Below are positions 19,303-34,961 of a DNA stretch of 64,000 nucleotides, piece after piece. A model generated the notes under the pieces. That model had not been told where the DNA came from. It did no database searches and saw nothing but the letters and a program-made list of their open reading frames with translations. Both the position numbers and the translations under genes were made by a program. Source of the DNA: Thiospirochaeta perfilievii (GTDB taxonomy: Bacteria > Spirochaetota > Spirochaetia > DSM-2461). The DNA is taken from contig NZ_CP035807.1 in assembly GCF_008329945.1 (NCBI RefSeq), forward strand, positions 2,108,001 through 2,172,000, given 5' to 3'. Position 1 is the first letter of the stretch. The number at the start of each line of letters is the position of its first letter.

Positions 19303-20728
19303 ATGGATGATAATTTAAACAAACATCTATCTGGGGAGTATAAACTAGGTTTTGAAACAGATGTTGAATCAGAAACTTTCCCGGTAGGTCTAAATATAGA
19401 GACAATTAAAGAGATATCAAAAAAGAAGGATGATCCTGAGTGGTTATTGGATTTTAGGTTAAAAGCATTTGATAAATGGCTTAAGGCTAAAGAGCCTAAC
19501 TGGGCAAACATACACCATGATCCAATAGATTATCAAAAAATTAGCTACTTCTCTAAACCTAAAAAAAGTTAAACAGTTTAGATGAAGTTGATGAATCAAT
19601 TCTTAAAACCTACGAGCGGTTAGGTATTCCACTAGAAGAGCAAAAAATACTATCTGGAGTAGCAGTTGATGCAGTCTTTGACTCCGTATCTGTTGTTACA
19701 ACATTCCATGAGCATTTAAAAGAGAGGGGAATAATATTCTGTTCCATTAGCGAGGCAGCAAGGGACTACCCAGAACTTGTAAAGAAGTATTTAGGTTCAG
19801 TAGTTCCAATAACAGATAACTACTTTGCAACTTTAAATAGTGCTGTTTTTACAGATGGAACCTTTGTTTATATACCTAAAAATATTAGATGTCCAATGGA
19901 GCTATCCACCTATTTTAGGATTAATGCACAAAATACAGGGCAGTTTGAAAGAACACTTATAGTTGCAGATGAGGGGAGTTATGTCTCCTACAATGAGGGG
20001 TGTTCAGCTCCCCAAAGGGATGAGAATCAACTCCATGCAGCGGTTGTAGAACTAATAGCCCATAAGGATGCTTTTATTAAATACTCCACAATTCAAAACT
20101 GGTATCCAGGGGATGAGAATGGTAAGGGGGTATATATAACTTTGTAACCAAAAGAGGTATCTGTCACGAGAATGCAAAAATATCATGGACACAGGTTGAA
20201 ACAGGCTCTGCTATTACCTGGAAATACCCAAGTTGTATATTAAAAGGGGACAACTCAGTAGGGGAGTTCTACTCTGTAGCCCTAACTAGTTTAAAACAGG
20301 AAGCTGATACCGGAACAAAAATGATACACATAGGGAAAAATACCAAATCTACAATTATATCCAAGGGTATATCCGCTTTAAAAGGAAAAAACAGTTATAG
20401 AGGTTTGGTAAAATTTAATAAGAATGCTATTGGGTCTAGGAATTTCTCCCAGTGTGACTCTCTTTTAATTGGAGAGGATTGTAGTGCCCATACCTATCCA
20501 TATTTAGATGCGGAGAATAGTGAGTCTATAGTTGAGCATGAAGCTACTACATCTAAAATAAGTGATGAACAACTCTTCTATATAAGGCAGAGGGGTATTA
20601 AGCCTGAAGATGCAGTAAGTCTTATTGTAAACGGGTTTTGTAAAGAAGTTTTAAATGAACTTCCCATGGAGTTCGCAGTAGAAGCAAGAGAGTTATTAGA
20701 TATAAGTCTTGAAGGGAGCATAGGATAA
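19303..20728 (+). pseudogene. sufB: sufB, Fe-S cluster assembly scaffold, interrupted by two single-base frameshifts
   Basis: The gene reads as SufB across three frames, about 475 aa if corrected. Segment one (19303-19569) ends PKKS-stop; the expected continuation, [10 protein letters not shown] and onward, lies in the -1 frame from about 19563. Segment two ends at about 20147 after GDENGKG, and the expected [10 protein letters not shown] follows in the next frame. Both breaks are one base short in homopolymers: A7 at 19561-19567 and G5 at 20126-20130. Conserved blocks remain: [39 protein letters not shown] (cysteine) and EHEATTSKI. The start at 19303 follows AAGGA; an upstream ATG at 19228 would add an atypical hydrophobic leader. 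Being first in an intact suf operon, it is probably functional, and the breaks are probably sequence errors. Confidence 0.88.
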
Positions 20729-24478: not shown

Positions 24479-25210
24479 TTATGCTGCTATTTTCTCTTTT
24501 TTCAAAAGATCCTTAGGTTGTATTAGATTCATTAAATATAAAAATGGAGTATCAATTATTGCAGCCATATATTTAACTACAAGAGTTGTTATAATAATTG
24601 ATCCAATTATATCAAAGGGGAATATTCCAGCTAATGCAAAACCAATTGTAACTAATACTGAATCTACTAGTTGGGAAATAAATGTAGAACCATTATTTCT
24701 AATCCACAAGGTCTTGGTTGAGCTATTCCATGACTTTATTTTAGCATAGACAAATACGTCTATACTCTGACTTATAAAGTATACAATATTTCCAACTAAT
24801 ACAGCTTTGAATGTTCCCCCGTTTATAGAGAAAAATAGCTCTAGAGCACTATTGTAATCAGAACTGTAGTCTAAACCTTTAAATAGTGTAGAAACAAACA
24901 TAATTAGTATAAATGAAATATTTGCAAATATTGATATATGTACTGCATTTCTAGCATTTTTATATCCGTATTTTTCATTTAGAAGGTCTGTAGCAAGAAA
25001 AATACCTGCAAACATTACATTCCCTAATGTTGCTTCTAATTCAAACAGGCCAAAGTTGAAAATAACACCTTTGTTAACCTGTAGATTTGCTGCTATAACA
25101 CTTAGGATTATGTATCCAAGTATACCCTTCTTCCCAAAAAAACGGAAAGCTAAAGCTATTAATGCAAAGTTAAACAGTGCAAATAATAGAAAAATTAATA
25201 AATTATTCAT
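24479..25210 (-). CDS. yhhQ: Queuosine precursor transporter, YhhQ/VUT family
   Basis: This integral membrane protein of about 243 aa has about six helices. Seen: the family blocks ANLQVNKGVIFNFGLFELEATLG, MFAGIFLATDLLNEKYG, NIVYFISQSIDVFVYAKIK, WIRNNGSTFISQLVDSVLVT and VVKYMAAIIDTPFLYL, which together define the YhhQ queuosine-precursor importers (ECF-independent). Substrates in the family are preQ0, preQ1, queuine or queuosine. Two ATGs occur at 25213 and 25210. The second has AGGAG at 6 nt and is preferred. That Shine-Dalgarno is the last part of a preQ1-I riboswitch (25217-25253), which explains regulation and supports the function. Confidence 0.92.
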   Translation of the reverse strand: MNNLLIFLLFALFNFALIALAFRFFGKKGILGYIILSVIAANLQVNKGVIFNFGLFELEATLGNVMFAGIFLATDLLNEKYGYKNARNAVHISIFANISFILIMFVSTLFKGLDYSSDYNSALELFFSINGGTFKAVLVGNIVYFISQSIDVFVYAKIKSWNSSTKTLWIRNNGSTFISQLVDSVLVTIGFALAGIFPFDIIGSIIITTLVVKYMAAIIDTPFLYLMNLIQPKDLLKKEKIAA

Positions 25211-25216
25211 CATAGA

Positions 25217-25253
25217 CTCCTAGTTTTGTTTCGCAGGATGGTTACGAACTGCG
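25217..25253 (-). promoter_or_regulatory. preQ1 class I riboswitch controlling yhhQ
   Basis: On the minus strand: stem CGCAG/CTGCG, a 12-nt loop TTCGTAACCATC between its arms, then the A-rich tail AAACAAAACTAGGAG. This matches the preQ1-I layout (short P1, pyrimidine-rich loop, A-tail that folds back, and a tail ending in the ribosome-binding site). The AGGAG of yhhQ lies in the tail, so ligand binding should hide it: translational repression when preQ1 is plentiful. A 14-nt inverted repeat (25254-25267) abuts it. Confidence 0.9.
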
Positions 25254-25297
25254 ACTGATTTATCAGTGATTTGTAATGTATACATAAATACAGTAAA

Positions 25298-25996
25298 ATG
25301 CAAGATATGATAAGGTACAGCAGAATAACTAATAAAATAAAAAGAGAGATTGTTTTGTTAAAGGGGAAACCATGTAAGTGGGGTAAGTGTAGTTTTTGTG
25401 ACTATATTGAGGATAACTCAACAGATGAAGACCTAAATGATAAAATAAACTTTGATATTTTATCAAATATTACTGGAGAGTATGGGGTTTTAGAAGTTAT
25501 AAACTCTGGTAATGTTTTTGAACTATCTCAAAAGACCCTTAATTATATAAAAGAAATAATAGTAGATAAAAAAATTGATACACTTTTCTTTGAAGCCCAC
25601 TGGATATATAGGAAAAGAGTAAAGTATATGAGGGACTTTTTTGGAGTAAAATGTATTGTCAAAACTGGACTCGAGAGTTTTAATCAAGATTTTAGGGAGA
25701 GGATACTCTTAAAGGGTTTTGATTATAAAAATATAGATGAGATAAAAGAGTATTTTGATTCTGTATGCCTAATGGTTGGAATTCAGGGGCAAAGCAAAGA
25801 GATGATAATAAATGATATAGAGTTAGCCCGAAATAATTTTAATCATTTTACTATAAATATCTTTGTTGAAAACTCTACAAATATTAAACCCGATAATAAG
25901 CTTATAAGTTGGTTTCAGAGTGAGTATAAGTGGTTAGACAGTGAACAAAAATGTGATGTCCTCTGGGTCAATACTGATTTTGGAGTTGGAGATTAA
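25298..25996 (+). CDS. Small radical SAM-type protein; candidate queuine lyase (QueL-like)
   Basis: This 232-aa protein has a single N-terminal cysteine cluster, C26, C31 and C34 in KPCKWGKCSFCDY. The spacing is CX4CX2C, where most radical SAM enzymes have CX3CX2C. Downstream features fit a radical SAM barrel: VLEVINSGNVFEL, the strand FEAHWIYRKRVKYM, IVKTGLESFNQDFRERIL (a GxE-like turn) and CLMVGIQGQSKEM. It stands divergent from yhhQ and shares a 90-nt spacer that holds a preQ1 riboswitch. Some bacteria pair a YhhQ importer with the non-canonical radical SAM enzyme QueL, which frees queuine from queuosine 5'-phosphate; that is the leading hypothesis. It could be another radical SAM enzyme of the queuosine pathway. 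No Shine-Dalgarno is seen, and an in-frame ATG at 25307 is an alternative start. Confidence 0.6.
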   Translation: MQDMIRYSRITNKIKREIVLLKGKPCKWGKCSFCDYIEDNSTDEDLNDKINFDILSNITGEYGVLEVINSGNVFELSQKTLNYIKEIIVDKKIDTLFFEAHWIYRKRVKYMRDFFGVKCIVKTGLESFNQDFRERILLKGFDYKNIDEIKEYFDSVCLMVGIQGQSKEMIINDIELARNNFNHFTINIFVENSTNIKPDNKLISWFQSEYKWLDSEQKCDVLWVNTDFGVGD

Positions 25997-26896: not shown

Positions 26897-29800
26897 ATGA
26901 AAAAAATAATTAAGTTATCTATATTTCTACTAATTCTAATGTTTTCATGTAGTAAAGATAGTAGTGATACTGTTGTAAAACAGGAAGAAGTGGTTAAAAA
27001 TGTTGTGGAAAGTAGCTCCAATTTAGTGGAGCCAGTAAAAGAGCAAGAGAGTGAAGTAGTTCCCCTTGTTCCTGTTGATATGGAAGTTTTTAATCAGAAT
27101 ATTATTAAAACAGAGGCTTCAGAAGGTGCTCTTTTAGAGGATAGTATTGATTATAGTTCTACAACTGTTAATTATTATAACCCTGGAGAACATGATAATT
27201 CATCCTTCCAGATTGCAGATGATGGGAAACCTTTGGAAATTGTAGATTTTGGTCCTACAGGTAAACTCCCTGAAGAGATGCAAAAACCATCTGTATATGT
27301 TCTCTTCTCCAAACCAATGGTCCCTCTTTCTAAACTAGGAGAGCCTATAACCTCCTTTGATAATTTTGTTATAGAGCCAGCACTAGAGGGTGTATATCGC
27401 TGGTATGGGACTAACCTTCTATCCTTTGAAGCTTCAAAACCAATATTAGCAGATTCTGATGGCTACTCTAAGGAGTATAGAGTTGTAGTAAAAAAGGATA
27501 TAAAATCTTTAACAGGGCAGACTCTTGGAAAGGATTTTGAGTATAGTTTCTATCCTAAAGAAGTAGAAATGGTAAACCTAATAATACCGGTAAACGATAC
27601 TGATGTTTTAGGTAGGTTGTCAAATGTTCCCTATGACCTAGCCCATAAAGCTATTGTTCGTTTTAACATGCCTGTTGATTTAGACTATATAAAAAATGGA
27701 TTGGACGTTAAGGTAAAGGGAAACAGTGTTGATTTCTCGATTAGTAGAACACTTGATAAGGGAAATAGGGGAGATCGATCAATTGTTATAGAAATTCCTA
27801 ATAGCGTTAAATTTACTAATAACAATCCTGTAATGATAACACTAAAAGAGGGGGCTGTTCCTAGGAAGGGAACTCCCCAAAAAACAGAGAGTCAAAGCAA
27901 GGTTTATGAGACTTTAGATAAATTTACTTTCTATGGCAGTTCGACATATAGTTATGCCACTCCATCTCTACCTAAGGGAAATAGATACCCACTATATATT
28001 TCATTTAATCAAATTATTGATAAAGAACAGGATATAAAGAGTCTTATTAAAACTTCGTTAGATGTGGACTTAGATGAGAAAGTATTTATATATGGTTCAA
28101 CTATCCATATTACTAATTTACCCCTAGAGTCTGGTGATAGTTACAGTGTTACAATAAAAGAGGGTCTAAAGGATATATATGGGCAAGAGTTAACTGGAGG
28201 AGAGAGGGTTCTTAACGAGGTTGTTCCTGAAGCGACATCCTATATTAGATTTCCAGATAAATCCTATGGTTCATCTGACCCTGCAAGGGTTGGGTATTTA
28301 GAGTCACAGTTTGATCCAGGAATTATAATACAGCATCAAAACCTTGACAGTTTAAGTTATGGGGTGGAAGCTGTTGATTCAATTATTAATAGTAAGACAA
28401 CTACAAACATGAGTGCTGTAGATCTATCTGTTTCTAAAAAGAACTACTCTAATTTTGAATATATCGACTTAAAGAGTTTTGTAAACGGAATGGGGAATGG
28501 ATCAGTTCTCTTTAATGGAGAGGGAACTTATCACTGGTATAATGATAGGGAAATTACAAGGAAGGATCAGCTTTTAGTTCAAATGACTGATATAGGTATA
28601 ACTGTTAGATTTGGTTATAATATGATTCTTGTATGGGCAAACTCATTATCCAACGGTGCTCCAATTATTGGAGCAGATGTTACACTTTATAATAGAAATA
28701 AGACTATTACAAAAACAGCTAAAAGTGATAAAAATGGATTAACAGTATTCAATCTAGGACCAAATGAGTACGCAAAGTCATACTATAACTACAGAGATGT
28801 TAGTTTTTGGGTTAATGTTGATAGTGGGGAGGACAAGGCCTCGTTAGAAGTTTTTGATAATTTAACCCCTTGGCGTCATGGTGTAAGTGGGCGAGACCCA
28901 GAGAATGCAGAAGAGTCTCTAGATAGAATGTTACTTTTTTCTGATAGGCAGTTATATAAACCAGGAGAAGAGTTAAGTTTTAGAGGGATCCATTGGAGAC
29001 AGAGATTAGGGGAGTTTACGCCCTACGAAGGGGAGTACTCTATATACCTAACTTCCCGGGGATATAAGTCCCAGGTGATCTATAAAACAACTGGTAAAAC
29101 AACTAAGAGTGGAGGTTCATTTGGTTCATTTAAACTTCCCGAGGATATAAAACCTGGAAAATACTCCCTTATCTATAGGGTCGGTAATAACCGGGGGTCA
29201 GCTGAGATTCAAATAGCCAATTTTAGAAGATTAAACTTCTTTGTAACTTCCCAAATACCAGATAGAACATTCTATTATGGTGATACTATAAGTATCCCTG
29301 TAAAAGCAGGATATCTTGCAGGGGGAGTTATGCCTGGAGCAAGTTATTCCTACTACTGGACTAGAAAGATGATAAACTTTACCCCTCCAGGGAAGAGATG
29401 GGATTCCTATATTTTTGGTATAAATAGTTATAGTGGGGAGAAAAACCTAGAACAGGGTGAAGGAAGACTTTCAGGTAGTGGTGAAGCCCAGATAAAGGAG
29501 GAAGCTTTAGGGCATGAGAGCCAGGTTGGAACTTATAGATATGTATTGGAGACTACTGTAACTGATATTGATAATCAACAGGTATCAAATACTGCCTCTG
29601 TTGTTGTTCATCCATCTTCCTTTTATATAGGAGCTAAGTTAGGGGATGATAGTAGCTCCTATTGGTCATCTTTTATTAAAGCTAAAGAGGATACCCCATT
29701 AAGAATTGTCCTTGTTACACCAGAGGGTGAAATATATAAAAAGAGCAGTGATATTGATATTGAACTTTATAAGATCTCGTGGAAGTCATCCTATCAGCAG

Positions 29801-32785
29801 GGTGTTTACGATAGAGTTAATGTTTCATATAGAAAGAGCGAAGAGCTTGTGGGAACATATAAAACAAAGTCAGACTCTAAAGGGTTAGCTAGTATAGATA
29901 TTAATCCTGAAACATCTGGTAGTTATATAGCGAAAATAAAAAGCGCTGATGATAATGGTAGAGCTGTCCAGAGTGATCTTCGATTCTACTCCTACGGTGG
30001 AGGATGGTACTACTGGGGTGGAGATAGTGACACTATTAGTCTTGTTCCAGATAAGGATCTCTATTTTGTTAATGATAGTGCAAAAATAATGGTTCAGTCC
30101 CCATTAAAAGAGGGTAAATATCTTTTAACAGTAGAGAGAGAAGGTATAATTGAGAAATCTATAATTAACCTTGATGAAGATACTACTATGGTTGAAATTC
30201 CAATAGAAGAGAGCTATGTCCCAAGGGTTTATGTAGCCTTAACTAGTTTTACCAATAGGGAAGAGGCTCCGGAGAACTACTTTGCTCCAGATTTAGGAAA
30301 ACCAAAAAATCTATTTGGAGTAACAAGTTTAGATGTATCCCCTATTACAAGGACATTAGATATAGATGTTGCTGCATCTAAGGCTAGTTATAGACCTGGA
30401 GAGGATGCAGAAGTATATATTAAAGTCTCTAAGGATGGGAAACCTGTTGCAAATACAGAACTTGTCTATTTAGCAGTAGATAGAGGGGTCGTAGATCTTG
30501 TTAACTATCATGTTCCAAACCCATTAAAATACTTTTATAATCCATACAACTTTCCTCTGTATACTTCAGGTGATGACTTAAGAAATTATTTAATGGACCC
30601 TGTTAGTTATGATATTTCCAACCTACAAGGTGGAGATGGATCAACTAAAATGGAGAAAAGGGAAGATTTTAATCCTTTAGCAGCCTTTGAGCCTTATATT
30701 AAGACAGATGCTAACGGTATTGCAAAAGTTAATTTTAAACTTCCAGATACTCTTACTACATATAGAACTACAGTTATTGCATTAGAAGGGAATAGGGTAG
30801 GGTATTCAGAAAACGAAATATTGGTAAAAAACCCAATAAATGTAAGATCCGCTTTCCCAAGACGACTGAGACTTAGGGACACAGGAGTTGGATATGTTAT
30901 ATTGCAAAATAATACAGATAGTGATCAAAGTGTTACAGTCTCTTTAGACTCAGAGAGTATTACATTTCCAGGGGAGAGTTTAAAGAGTGTTGTCGTCCCT
31001 GCATTTTCATTATATAAAGTTCCATTTTTAATGGTACCACAGGATGAAGGTAAGCATAAAATTAATACAACTATTAAGTCTGATGTTCTAAATGAGGTTA
31101 TCATTGAGCCTATAAATGTTGAAAAGCCCCTTATAAAAGAGACTTTTGCAACTACAGGAAAAGTTGAAGATGGAGCCTCGGAAGAGGGTATTCTTATTCC
31201 GGAAGATATTGCTGATAACTATGGGGCCTATGATATCTCTATGTACGCTTCAAGGTTTGGTATGATTAAGGGGCCTATAAATAGTCTTAAAACTTTTAAT
31301 AGAACTCTATTTGAAAGGTTGTACTACTATATGCCAGATGCAGTTTTAGGAAAAAAACTTAGTCAACTTGATATAACCTATGATCCTAGTAGTGTTGATA
31401 GTGTTTTATCTACATTAAAGAGAATCCAGACGCCATCAGGGTGGTTAAAATATTATACAAGGCAGACTGAGCAGGATATCTACTTAGATATAATCTCACT
31501 TATGTTTATAATAAATGCCCAAGATACAAAACGTTCAATTCCAAATGGCTTAAAAGATGGGTTAGCAAATGCTCTGCTTAATAGCTTAAATAAGGATAGG
31601 GTAAATAGTTCAACTGTCTCCTTTGCTTCTTATATATTAAATCAAGCAGGTGTAAATGTTACAACTTTAGTTGATAAGTTATTAAAAGAAGAGGAGAGTA
31701 TAGGTTTAACAGCCCTAGGTTATCTATCTTCCACATTAAAAGATATGGGAAGGGATGAGGATTCTCTTACTACGTGGAAACTGGCTAAAAAGTTTGTTAG
31801 GCCTGGGACTAGAACCATCGATATAAATGAACCCTATGAAACAAGATGGTATTTTGATAGTGAAATTAGACAGATAAGTTCCCTTATTCTAGCTGGTCTA
31901 AAGTTAGATGAAAATTCAGATATGATGCAGAGATATGTTACAACTCTTAGGGATAGATTAAATGCAAGGATGTGGAAGAGTAATACAGACTACCTGTGGT
32001 CTTTAATTGCAATAAAGGCTATAGCAGAAAATGATCAAATTGATAGTTTAGATATGAACGTAGCCCTTACGTTAGATGGGAACATTGTAGAGCAGAAGGG
32101 AATCAACAACTTAGCTGACTCAACTTTAGATGTAACTCTACCACTATTTGAATCACCACTAAAAGAGATGGAGAGGGGAAAACTCTTCCCAATTAGGATT
32201 GAGAAGAGTGGAACTGGTAATATCTACTACTCTGCTCAAATTAATTACGCCCTACCTTCCGAGGTAACACTGCCTAGAGATGAGGGTATTGGTCTCTTTT
32301 TACACTATGAAAATTTAGATGGTGAAGTTGTAAAACCTAAGGATGTTATTGTTGGAACTACATATAGGGTAAGAACTGTAATATCTAGTAGTAAAAGACG
32401 GGAGTATCTAACTCTCGATATCCCTGTCCCTTCAGGTATTGAAATTATTGACCCAAGTTTTGCAACAACCTCGGCATATAAACCTGAGGGTGGTGTAGAT
32501 TCTGAAGTCTGGACTAGAGAGACATCATATGGTGATGAAACCCAGTTTAAATCAGAGGGTTACTGGGGTTATTGGTGGTATTGGAAAAATGAACCAGATC
32601 AAGAGATCTATGATAACCACTTAACATATACATGGGACACATTTTATGAAGGGAAGAGGGAGATTACATTCCTAGTAAGGGCTACTAATCCTGGAATATT
32701 CCCAACACCATCAGCCCAGGCCTCTCTACTGTTTGAGCCTGAGGTCTTTGGTCGAACAGGAGGCTCCCTCTTTGTTATTAAGTAG
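26897..32785 (+). CDS. Alpha-2-macroglobulin family lipoprotein without thioester motif
   Basis: A very large (1962 aa) secreted lipoprotein; signal ends LILMFSCSK with lipidated C18. After a low-complexity linker rich in Val/Glu, about residues 95-1000 carry repeated beta domains (MG type), including the YfhM/YfaS blocks LLFSDRQLYKPGEELSFRGI and ITRTLDIDVAASKASYRPGE with DTLTTYRTTVIAL further on. The C-terminal alpha-helical domain (about 1440-1700) normally holds the CxEQ thioester; the equivalent region here, about residues 1455-1480, reads LKTFNRTLFERLYYYMPD and has no Cys or Gln pair. So this is a thioester-less bacterial A2M that may trap or act structurally but cannot cross-link proteases. 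It overlaps pbpC by 14 bases, a pairing known from other bacteria. Confidence 0.9.
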   Translation: MKKIIKLSIFLLILMFSCSKDSSDTVVKQEEVVKNVVESSSNLVEPVKEQESEVVPLVPVDMEVFNQNIIKTEASEGALLEDSIDYSSTTVNYYNPGEHDNSSFQIADDGKPLEIVDFGPTGKLPEEMQKPSVYVLFSKPMVPLSKLGEPITSFDNFVIEPALEGVYRWYGTNLLSFEASKPILADSDGYSKEYRVVVKKDIKSLTGQTLGKDFEYSFYPKEVEMVNLIIPVNDTDVLGRLSNVPYDLAHKAIVRFNMPVDLDYIKNGLDVKVKGNSVDFSISRTLDKGNRGDRSIVIEIPNSVKFTNNNPVMITLKEGAVPRKGTPQKTESQSKVYETLDKFTFYGSSTYSYATPSLPKGNRYPLYISFNQIIDKEQDIKSLIKTSLDVDLDEKVFIYGSTIHITNLPLESGDSYSVTIKEGLKDIYGQELTGGERVLNEVVPEATSYIRFPDKSYGSSDPARVGYLESQFDPGIIIQHQNLDSLSYGVEAVDSIINSKTTTNMSAVDLSVSKKNYSNFEYIDLKSFVNGMGNGSVLFNGEGTYHWYNDREITRKDQLLVQMTDIGITVRFGYNMILVWANSLSNGAPIIGADVTLYNRNKTITKTAKSDKNGLTVFNLGPNEYAKSYYNYRDVSFWVNVDSGEDKASLEVFDNLTPWRHGVSGRDPENAEESLDRMLLFSDRQLYKPGEELSFRGIHWRQRLGEFTPYEGEYSIYLTSRGYKSQVIYKTTGKTTKSGGSFGSFKLPEDIKPGKYSLIYRVGNNRGSAEIQIANFRRLNFFVTSQIPDRTFYYGDTISIPVKAGYLAGGVMPGASYSYYWTRKMINFTPPGKRWDSYIFGINSYSGEKNLEQGEGRLSGSGEAQIKEEALGHESQVGTYRYVLETTVTDIDNQQVSNTASVVVHPSSFYIGAKLGDDSSSYWSSFIKAKEDTPLRIVLVTPEGEIYKKSSDIDIELYKISWKSSYQQGVYDRVNVSYRKSEELVGTYKTKSDSKGLASIDINPETSGSYIAKIKSADDNGRAVQSDLRFYSYGGGWYYWGGDSDTISLVPDKDLYFVNDSAKIMVQSPLKEGKYLLTVEREGIIEKSIINLDEDTTMVEIPIEESYVPRVYVALTSFTNREEAPENYFAPDLGKPKNLFGVTSLDVSPITRTLDIDVAASKASYRPGEDAEVYIKVSKDGKPVANTELVYLAVDRGVVDLVNYHVPNPLKYFYNPYNFPLYTSGDDLRNYLMDPVSYDISNLQGGDGSTKMEKREDFNPLAAFEPYIKTDANGIAKVNFKLPDTLTTYRTTVIALEGNRVGYSENEILVKNPINVRSAFPRRLRLRDTGVGYVILQNNTDSDQSVTVSLDSESITFPGESLKSVVVPAFSLYKVPFLMVPQDEGKHKINTTIKSDVLNEVIIEPINVEKPLIKETFATTGKVEDGASEEGILIPEDIADNYGAYDISMYASRFGMIKGPINSLKTFNRTLFERLYYYMPDAVLGKKLSQLDITYDPSSVDSVLSTLKRIQTPSGWLKYYTRQTEQDIYLDIISLMFIINAQDTKRSIPNGLKDGLANALLNSLNKDRVNSSTVSFASYILNQAGVNVTTLVDKLLKEEESIGLTALGYLSSTLKDMGRDEDSLTTWKLAKKFVRPGTRTIDINEPYETRWYFDSEIRQISSLILAGLKLDENSDMMQRYVTTLRDRLNARMWKSNTDYLWSLIAIKAIAENDQIDSLDMNVALTLDGNIVEQKGINNLADSTLDVTLPLFESPLKEMERGKLFPIRIEKSGTGNIYYSAQINYALPSEVTLPRDEGIGLFLHYENLDGEVVKPKDVIVGTTYRVRTVISSSKRREYLTLDIPVPSGIEIIDPSFATTSAYKPEGGVDSEVWTRETSYGDETQFKSEGYWGYWWYWKNEPDQEIYDNHLTYTWDTFYEGKREITFLVRATNPGIFPTPSAQASLLFEPEVFGRTGGSLFVIK

Positions 32786-34961
32786 GGTATGGAAAGGGTT
32801 TTTAATACTCCTTGGATCTTTAATACTCCTTGGACTTTTCCTATTTTTATTACCTTATAAAGGCCTAGAAGATGTACAAAAAGCCCACTACTCTCTATCT
32901 ATTAAAGATGTTAAAGGTAGAGAGTTATACAGTACTCCCCTGGATAATGGTCTAATTCGGTATAGGGTTAGGGAATACTCTATACCGAAAGAAGTAAAGA
33001 GTATTGTACTACTTAACGAGGATAGGTATTTTTATTACCATCTAGGTGTAAACCCAATATCCATATTTAAAACTCTGTTCTTAAATAAAAAAGAGGGCAG
33101 AGTTGTCTCTGGAGCATCTACTATAAGTATGCAGTTAGCAAGAATTATAACTCCTAGGAGTAAATCCTTAAAATCAAAGGCTCTAGAGATGTTTGATGCT
33201 CTGCGGCTAGAGCTTAAACTCTCTAAAAGTGAGATTTTGTCCTTATACCTGTCTTATATACCATTTGGTAAGAATATTGAGGGATATGGGGCTGCCTCAA
33301 AATACTACTACGGAAAGGAATTTAGTGATTTAACTATTTACGAGGCTTCAATTCTTGCAGTTATCCCTAGAAGTCCAAGTTTTTACGATCCTATTAAAAA
33401 TAGATCTAACTTAAAAGAAGCTTTAATTAGAAATAGTGATATCCCTATTGAAAAATTTGATAAAGCTCTAGATTTAATTGATTCTAGAAGTAGACTACCT
33501 AAAAACCCTATTAAAGCACCACACTTTGTTAACTTTGTAATGGACCGTATAACAGAAGATGCTTATATCGAAGGTGTAGATATAGTTACAACCCTTGATT
33601 TAGATATTCAGATGGACGCCCAGTATATATTAAATCAGCATATTGAGAACTCCCTAGAACATAGACTCTCTAATGGAGCAGTTTTGTTAATTTATAAGGG
33701 GGATATTGTCGCCTATATTGGTTCTAAAGATTTTTTTGATAATGAGACCCAAGGACAGATAGATGGAGTACAGATAAGGCGTCAGCCAGGTTCTACTCTT
33801 AAACCCTTTTTATATGAACTTGCATTTGAAAGTGGATTTACTCCAGCAACAATTATACCAGATATCCCCACAGTCTTTGGTCGAGAGGAGGTGTACCGTC
33901 CAGAAAATTTTAGTCAAACATATAACGGACCTGTTAGAGTTAGAACTGCATTAGCCTCTTCCTTAAATATTCCTGCTGTATATCTGTTGGAGAGATTAGG
34001 TGTAGATCCATTTATTAAAAGACTTAAAGAGTTAGGTTTTAACTCCCTTAATGGACAGGAGGATATATTAGGTCTAGGTCTTGCAGTAGGTAATGCAGAA
34101 GTAACACTATATGAATTAATAAGAGCATTTAGGAGCTTTAAAAACAGTGGTAATTATCAAGATTTAAACTGGATTAAGGGGGATGTTAAGGAGAATTATC
34201 CTGTTATGGATCCAATATATGCATCTTTAACTCGTGATATTCTTTCTGATAAAAGAGCACGAGTTTTAGGCTTTGGACGTAATACTCTGTTGAATACAGC
34301 CTATCCATCATATTTTAAAACCGGTACATCAAACCAATTTACCAATATATGGGCCCTAGGAGGCACTCCCGACTTAGCATGTGGAGTATGGATGGGTAAT
34401 TTTTCTGGTAATAGTGTTATTGGTACTCCTGGAAGTTCTATACCAGCAAGGATCATAATAGATCTTTTTGATGAGTTAAGTTCAAAAGAGGAGTTTCAGC
34501 CATTGTATGGTTTGGAAAAGGCTAAAATTTGTTCTCTTTCCGGAGGACTAGCAACAGTTAATTGTCCTGATACTACCTATGAGTATTTTAAAGATATATC
34601 TAACTTAAAAAAATGTGACTATCACAAAGATGGAGGTGGTGTTGTCCTTCCAGGAGAGTACTTACAGTGGTCATCAATCTATAATTACGACAATGTTTCA
34701 ACGATATCAGATATAGAGGTTTCAATTCTTTCCCCCCAGGATGGTGCTGAATTTTATTACTCTCCAGAGATTCCAGAGGGGTCTCAAGGTGTTGAGTTTC
34801 AGATTAATGGTAAGGGTAAATTTAATATAATTGGAAAGGGAGAGGAAATTATTAGTGGGACTCTTCCCTATCAGGGAATAATATATTTAGATAAGGGGGA
34901 ATGGGAGTTAGAGTTTAGGTTTGAAAATAAAATAGTATTAAGGTATATTAAAGTATCATAA
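32772..34961 (+). CDS. pbpC: Penicillin-binding protein 1C
   Basis: This bifunctional peptidoglycan synthase is about 729 aa. Seen: a membrane anchor (about residues 9-30); the glycosyltransferase-51 domain with LLNEDRYFYYHLGVNP (catalytic Glu in NEDRYF), VVSGASTISMQLARII and SYIPFGKNIEGYGAASKYYYGK; a transpeptidase domain with RRQPGSTLKPFLYE (nucleophile Ser in STLK), SSLNIPAVYLLE (SxN) and FKTGTSNQF (KTGT); and a C-terminal BiPBP_C-like beta domain (about 645-729). The start is the TTG at 32772, 8 nt after AGGAGG; an in-frame TTG at 32733 is less likely. It starts inside the A2M gene. Family knowledge: PbpC often pairs with A2M at the cell envelope. Confidence 0.93.
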   Translation: MLLSRVWKGFLILLGSLILLGLFLFLLPYKGLEDVQKAHYSLSIKDVKGRELYSTPLDNGLIRYRVREYSIPKEVKSIVLLNEDRYFYYHLGVNPISIFKTLFLNKKEGRVVSGASTISMQLARIITPRSKSLKSKALEMFDALRLELKLSKSEILSLYLSYIPFGKNIEGYGAASKYYYGKEFSDLTIYEASILAVIPRSPSFYDPIKNRSNLKEALIRNSDIPIEKFDKALDLIDSRSRLPKNPIKAPHFVNFVMDRITEDAYIEGVDIVTTLDLDIQMDAQYILNQHIENSLEHRLSNGAVLLIYKGDIVAYIGSKDFFDNETQGQIDGVQIRRQPGSTLKPFLYELAFESGFTPATIIPDIPTVFGREEVYRPENFSQTYNGPVRVRTALASSLNIPAVYLLERLGVDPFIKRLKELGFNSLNGQEDILGLGLAVGNAEVTLYELIRAFRSFKNSGNYQDLNWIKGDVKENYPVMDPIYASLTRDILSDKRARVLGFGRNTLLNTAYPSYFKTGTSNQFTNIWALGGTPDLACGVWMGNFSGNSVIGTPGSSIPARIIIDLFDELSSKEEFQPLYGLEKAKICSLSGGLATVNCPDTTYEYFKDISNLKKCDYHKDGGGVVLPGEYLQWSSIYNYDNVSTISDIEVSILSPQDGAEFYYSPEIPEGSQGVEFQINGKGKFNIIGKGEEIISGTLPYQGIIYLDKGEWELEFRFENKIVLRYIKVS

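Follow-up and report, generated by a model that had tools for sequence, protein, structure and literature searches.

A divergent QueL-QPTR gene pair with a preQ1 riboswitch leader suggests indirect queuine salvage in the spirochaete Thiospirochaeta perfilievii

Two divergent genes in a 64,000-nucleotide stretch of Thiospirochaeta perfilievii DNA (hereafter the window) raise the question of how this bacterium obtains the precursor for queuosine. A first-pass annotation read them as a YhhQ transporter under a preQ1 riboswitch and a radical SAM protein, possibly QueL. To address this question, we computed the family membership of both proteins (the transporter is termed QPTR here), the riboswitch and its position, the presence or absence of pathway genes, the Tgt pocket, and the pairing of QPTR with QueL across relatives. 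The QPTR-QueL pair is real and well supported. The locus is a clear new example of an enzyme and a route established earlier in gut bacteria. It adds a spirochaete lineage to the organisms with indirect queuine salvage, and its remaining interest lies in the QueL-linked transporter clade and the riboswitch variant.

The divergent gene pair

Both open reading frames were recovered at exactly the coordinates first assigned to them (Table 1). A phmmer search matched residues 2-232 of the plus-strand product to the queuine lyase of Clostridium spiroforme (PDB 6P78) with an E-value of 3.8e-80. An AlphaFold2 model built from the homologue alignment (pLDDT 89.5) superposed on 6P78 with a TM-score of 0.96 and 56% identity in the fold match, and the next solved radical-SAM folds reached only about 0.5. 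Sequence homology and structure prediction thus bear out the tentative naming as QueL.

Table 1. Features of the QPTR-QueL locus (window coordinates).
Feature	Position	Strand	Length	Basis or remark
QPTR/YhhQ queuosine-precursor transporter	24479..25213	-	244 aa	PF02592, TIGR00697; probable start 25210
preQ1-I riboswitch aptamer, type I	25214..25258	-		RF00522
P0 hairpin ACUGA-UAAA-UCAGU	25254..25267	-		abuts aptamer helix P1
queL, radical-SAM queuine lyase	25298..25996	+	232 aa	phmmer and model against 6P78; cluster C26, C31, C34

The CX4CX2C cluster motif of this protein had been singled out as unusual. Its spacing is real (C26-KWGK-C31-SF-C34), but it is not an oddity, as 6P78 has the same arrangement (CIWGKCSFC) and so do all 22 aligned QueL homologues and every one of the 19 others for which an open reading frame was called, a total of 41 that includes more distant spirochaete QueLs. 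Judged by these alignments, CX4CX2C is the norm of the QueL family. Because the homologues align from M4 of the window's open reading frame, the true queL start is probably 25307, giving a protein of 229 amino acids. The likeness to the C. spiroforme enzyme thus covers full-length homology, cluster motif and fold, and the difference from known clostridial QueLs is that the host here is a spirochaete.

The minus-strand product belongs to the QPTR family, with matches to PF02592 (E-value 3.9e-36; 125.1 bits against a curated cut-off of 27.2) and TIGR00697 (127.7 bits against 50.95), in agreement with its annotation as YhhQ, and it is the only QPTR encoded in the genome. In the leader and start comparison, the alignment of relatives begins at the second ATG, so this is probably the true start. 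A palindrome in the intergenic region, ATGTATACAT, was considered as an operator common to both genes and was rejected since it is not kept in relatives. A promoter scan returned about as many matches as shuffled sequences.

Pathway genes and the proposed salvage route

We searched the whole genome (3.70 Mb, 96.85% complete) for queuosine genes. Tgt, QueA and QueH are present outside the window, Tgt and QueA being confirmed by a second search, and no further gene of the pathway was seen in the window, as had been noted. The search for preQ1 synthesis covered QueC (PF06508) and QueF (PF14489), and neither matched in the genome while the controls were positive. QueG gave a 23-bit partial match only, and the controls of a Qng1 search gave no signal. 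The pocket of Tgt reads GGLSVGE, which is of the preQ1 type (GGLAVG, versus GG[LS][AS]G for the queuine type) and keeps the valine said to hinder queuine (PMC11570991). Because the pocket resembles the preQ1 type, the cell would need preQ1, and with QueC and QueF absent, Tgt, QueA and QueH present and no QueK assigned, this preQ1 must come by salvage.

Published work provides a route. QueL regenerates preQ1 from queuine, which is itself freed from queuosine by QueK or Qng1 (PMC11130926, PMC11477304, PMC11570991). The C. difficile QueL was described by Yuan et al. (2019, PNAS, as cited in PMC11130926 and PMC11477304). By analogy, the window's QueL very probably regenerates preQ1 from queuine that the cell has scavenged, a catalytic activity that we infer from 6P78 and the C. 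difficile enzyme. The first-pass annotation had QueL releasing queuine from queuosine 5'-phosphate, which is not the reaction of the published enzyme. Its proposal that the cell salvages instead of making preQ1 was correct in that the organism, lacking QueC and QueF, is a salvager, but preQ1 would still be made, from queuine. The unusual route that it allowed for is the published indirect one.

A need for preQ1 at Tgt, no synthesis of its own and a queuine lyase together fit indirect queuine salvage, and we consider it likely that the locus operates in this way. QPTR would bring in a precursor of queuosine, most likely queuine as the free base, and QueL, as a [4Fe-4S]/SAM radical enzyme, would strip the cyclopentenediol side group from it to yield preQ1. 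Tgt would then place preQ1 at position 34 of tRNAs with GUN anticodons, and QueA and QueH would complete queuosine. Surplus preQ1 would bind the class I switch upstream of QPTR, sequester the Shine-Dalgarno sequence and lower import, so that the net effect would be product feedback on uptake. If queuine import holds, these bacteria would have to rely on other organisms to release queuosine or queuine.

The closest known arrangement is the queK-qrtT-queL operon of C. difficile and Lachnospiraceae, in which QueL sits with QueK and an ECF importer under a preQ1 riboswitch (PMC11477304 for C. difficile). The window shares with these systems a QueL and an importer under a preQ1-I switch, as well as the absence of preQ1 synthesis. 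It differs in that the importer is a QPTR (PF02592), the two genes are divergent, the switch covers the importer only and no QueK is assigned. The YhhQ/QPTR transporters of Chlamydia trachomatis (for queuine) and E. coli (for preQ0 and preQ1) are of the same family as the window's (PF02592, TIGR00697). In Chlamydia, however, queuine is inserted directly by a queuine-type Tgt, whereas the Tgt of the genome analysed here has a preQ1-type pocket.

The riboswitch and its P0 hairpin

Infernal placed RF00522 directly upstream of the QPTR start with 39.3 bits, just over the gathering score of 39 and marginal if taken alone. The riboswitch core, GCAGUUCGUAACCAUCCUGC...CAAAACUAGGAG, is nearly identical letter for letter across 11 loci, with changes in L010 only, and this conservation together with the position supports the riboswitch that had been annotated there. 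It is the only preQ1 riboswitch match in the genome, and queL itself has none. Among 80 relatives, seven of seven matches lie at a QPTR of the window's type, including one genome (G009) in which QueL is missing. The 3' end of the aptamer carries AGGAG (25217-25221), the Shine-Dalgarno sequence of QPTR, a few bases 5' of the ATG.

Riboswitches of the preQ1 family sense preQ1. As preQ1 would be the product of QueL, such a switch is the sensor that one would expect here. The leader is predicted to bind preQ1 and control translation, with a direction of switching that we infer.

The leader alignment contains the motifs CGCAG-UU...UC-CUGCG, which agree with the description of type I switches as having UU at the top of the 5' strand of P1, UC preceding its 3' strand and a C in the 3' tail (PMC11625349). 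By these sequence criteria, the leader is a class I type I preQ1 switch, which it also resembles in having the Shine-Dalgarno sequence at its 3' end. A switch of this type is known to bind two stacked preQ1 molecules (PMC8752633). Spirochaetota is not among the phyla listed for type I in PMC11625349, where control of yhhQ is assigned to type III switches. Unlike those, the window's yhhQ-type gene has a type I switch with a conserved hairpin, P0, abutting the aptamer.

Each of the ten leaders tested has P0 at this position, with a mean of 4.6 bp versus 2.9 in shuffled sequences, a value reached in 1 of 5000 joint shuffles. Pairs that are A-U in the window are U-A in relatives or G-C in some of them, and two pairs differ from the relatives on both sides. 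Because the tested leaders are akin to each other, this support is only moderate. The hairpin is also predicted in the minimum free energy fold of the leader; that fold is no better than those of shuffled sequences (z -0.85), and minimum free energy folding cannot judge a pseudoknot.

QueL-linked transporters, alternative readings and neighbouring genes

QueL is patchily distributed, occurring in 8 of 80 relatives; across the phylum, 24 of 393 genomes have it, counting one partial match of 19 bits. Where it occurs, a QPTR gene almost always adjoins it (27 of 29 loci in genomes of the phylum, L102 and L108 being the only exceptions). In the window's family, all seven QueL loci have a divergent QPTR with a riboswitch. 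In a second family (f9), QPTR is in tandem with QueL in 19 of 20 loci and belongs to a different clade; one such QPTR, from G058, is 25% identical to the window's and scores above the TIGR00697 cut-off. No preQ1 riboswitch was found at the gathering threshold in the tandem f9 loci. The tandem genes in f9 (L089-L107) often overlap by a few bases. One QueL locus of a third family (f25) has the QPTR downstream.

Three loci from metagenome-assembled genomes labelled Clostridia (L010, L012 and L013) carry a QPTR of the window's type (76-79% identical), QueL and the leader. Their QueLs branch with those of spirochaetes (support 85/75 for the whole group and 97/97 for the set with L010), which suggests either horizontal transfer or mislabelled genomes. 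Lachnospiraceae loci contain a preQ1 riboswitch, a nucleoside hydrolase, an ECF S component and QueL, as in the published layout. In Peptoniphilus and Anaerococcus, the surroundings of queL (loci L014, L023 and L033) gave no match to QPTR or to a hydrolase, and a preQ1 riboswitch was likewise missing within about 6 kb.

The import of queuine by the window's QPTR clade, though most likely, has a competitor. QPTR might instead import preQ1, or preQ0 and preQ1, as does E. coli YhhQ, which does not carry queuine (PMC11130926), and QueL would then mainly serve to reuse queuine that arises from turnover of the cell's tRNA or from a minor source. A riboswitch that senses preQ1 is in keeping with this, as is G009, a genome of the window's family: its QPTR is 76% identical and has the same riboswitch (L085 7578-8350; G009:C1:261577-262350), neither the genome nor the locus contains QueL, and tblastn detected no QueL remnant. 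From its retention of QPTR and riboswitch without QueL, the clade may also carry preQ1. G009 additionally owns a second, ordinary QPTR. We nevertheless regard this reading as unlikely, since QueL and QPTR are paired in two layouts with two QPTR clades, and the window's QPTR is 75-83% identical to other QueL-linked QPTRs and at most 41% identical to the remaining ones, which marks a distinct clade. Furthermore, G004 and G013 each have an ordinary QPTR in addition to the one linked to QueL, suggesting separate substrates.

With queuine import as the preferred reading, a broader scheme may be put forward tentatively, at somewhat less than even odds: spirochaetes would possess two QPTR-QueL cassettes, each arranged in its own way, in which the QPTRs came to take queuine independently of Chlamydia, and in the window's family a type I preQ1 switch with P0 would gauge the queuine supply through the product of QueL. 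The QueL-linked QPTRs provide a ready set for learning what makes a QPTR take queuine versus preQ1.

An added step, compatible with indirect salvage as set out above, would be a hydrolase that acts as QueK and feeds queuine to QueL. The genome encodes a single PF01156 nucleoside hydrolase (E-value 7.4e-74; C1:2942303-2943199), which groups next to the QueK-like hydrolases from Lachnospiraceae in a tree (88/81). However, that tree joins long branches and carries a warning to this effect, and by BLAST the protein resembles ordinary hydrolases of the family (35-36%) more closely than QueK-like ones (about 30%). Its gene is far from queL, and the QueL carriers G002, G011, G013 and G058 have no PF01156 match. 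A QueK role for this hydrolase is doubtful. The remaining alternative, that the 232-amino-acid protein is a radical-SAM enzyme of a different kind, for example an archaeosine lyase like RaSEA, is highly improbable and already largely excluded, because TIGR01210 (RaSEA), its sole NCBIfam match of note (E-value 9e-11), covers residues 16-148 only and reaches 41.6 bits where the cut-off is 212.15, in contrast to the full-length match to 6P78, and because other radical-SAM folds fit poorly. A Pfam search of the open reading frame gave no significant match. QueL is called here by none of the Pfam or NCBIfam models, so that proteins of this kind probably carry the annotation 'hypothetical'.

The adjacent SUF operon was considered as a functional partner of the pair and rejected because the neighbours at the same-genus locus L011, and at L012 and L013, are unrelated. 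Within that operon, sufB (window 19550-20728, plus strand) is split over three reading frames: the SufBD-core pieces at 19896-20144 and 20321-20725 do not share a frame, and in the upstream part the frame shifts close to a run of A around 19560. Either the gene has decayed or the assembly contains indel errors. On the other side of the pair, window positions 26897-34961 (plus strand) encode a bacterial alpha-2-macroglobulin of 1962 amino acids followed by a transglycosylase/transpeptidase penicillin-binding protein, which is a usual pairing.
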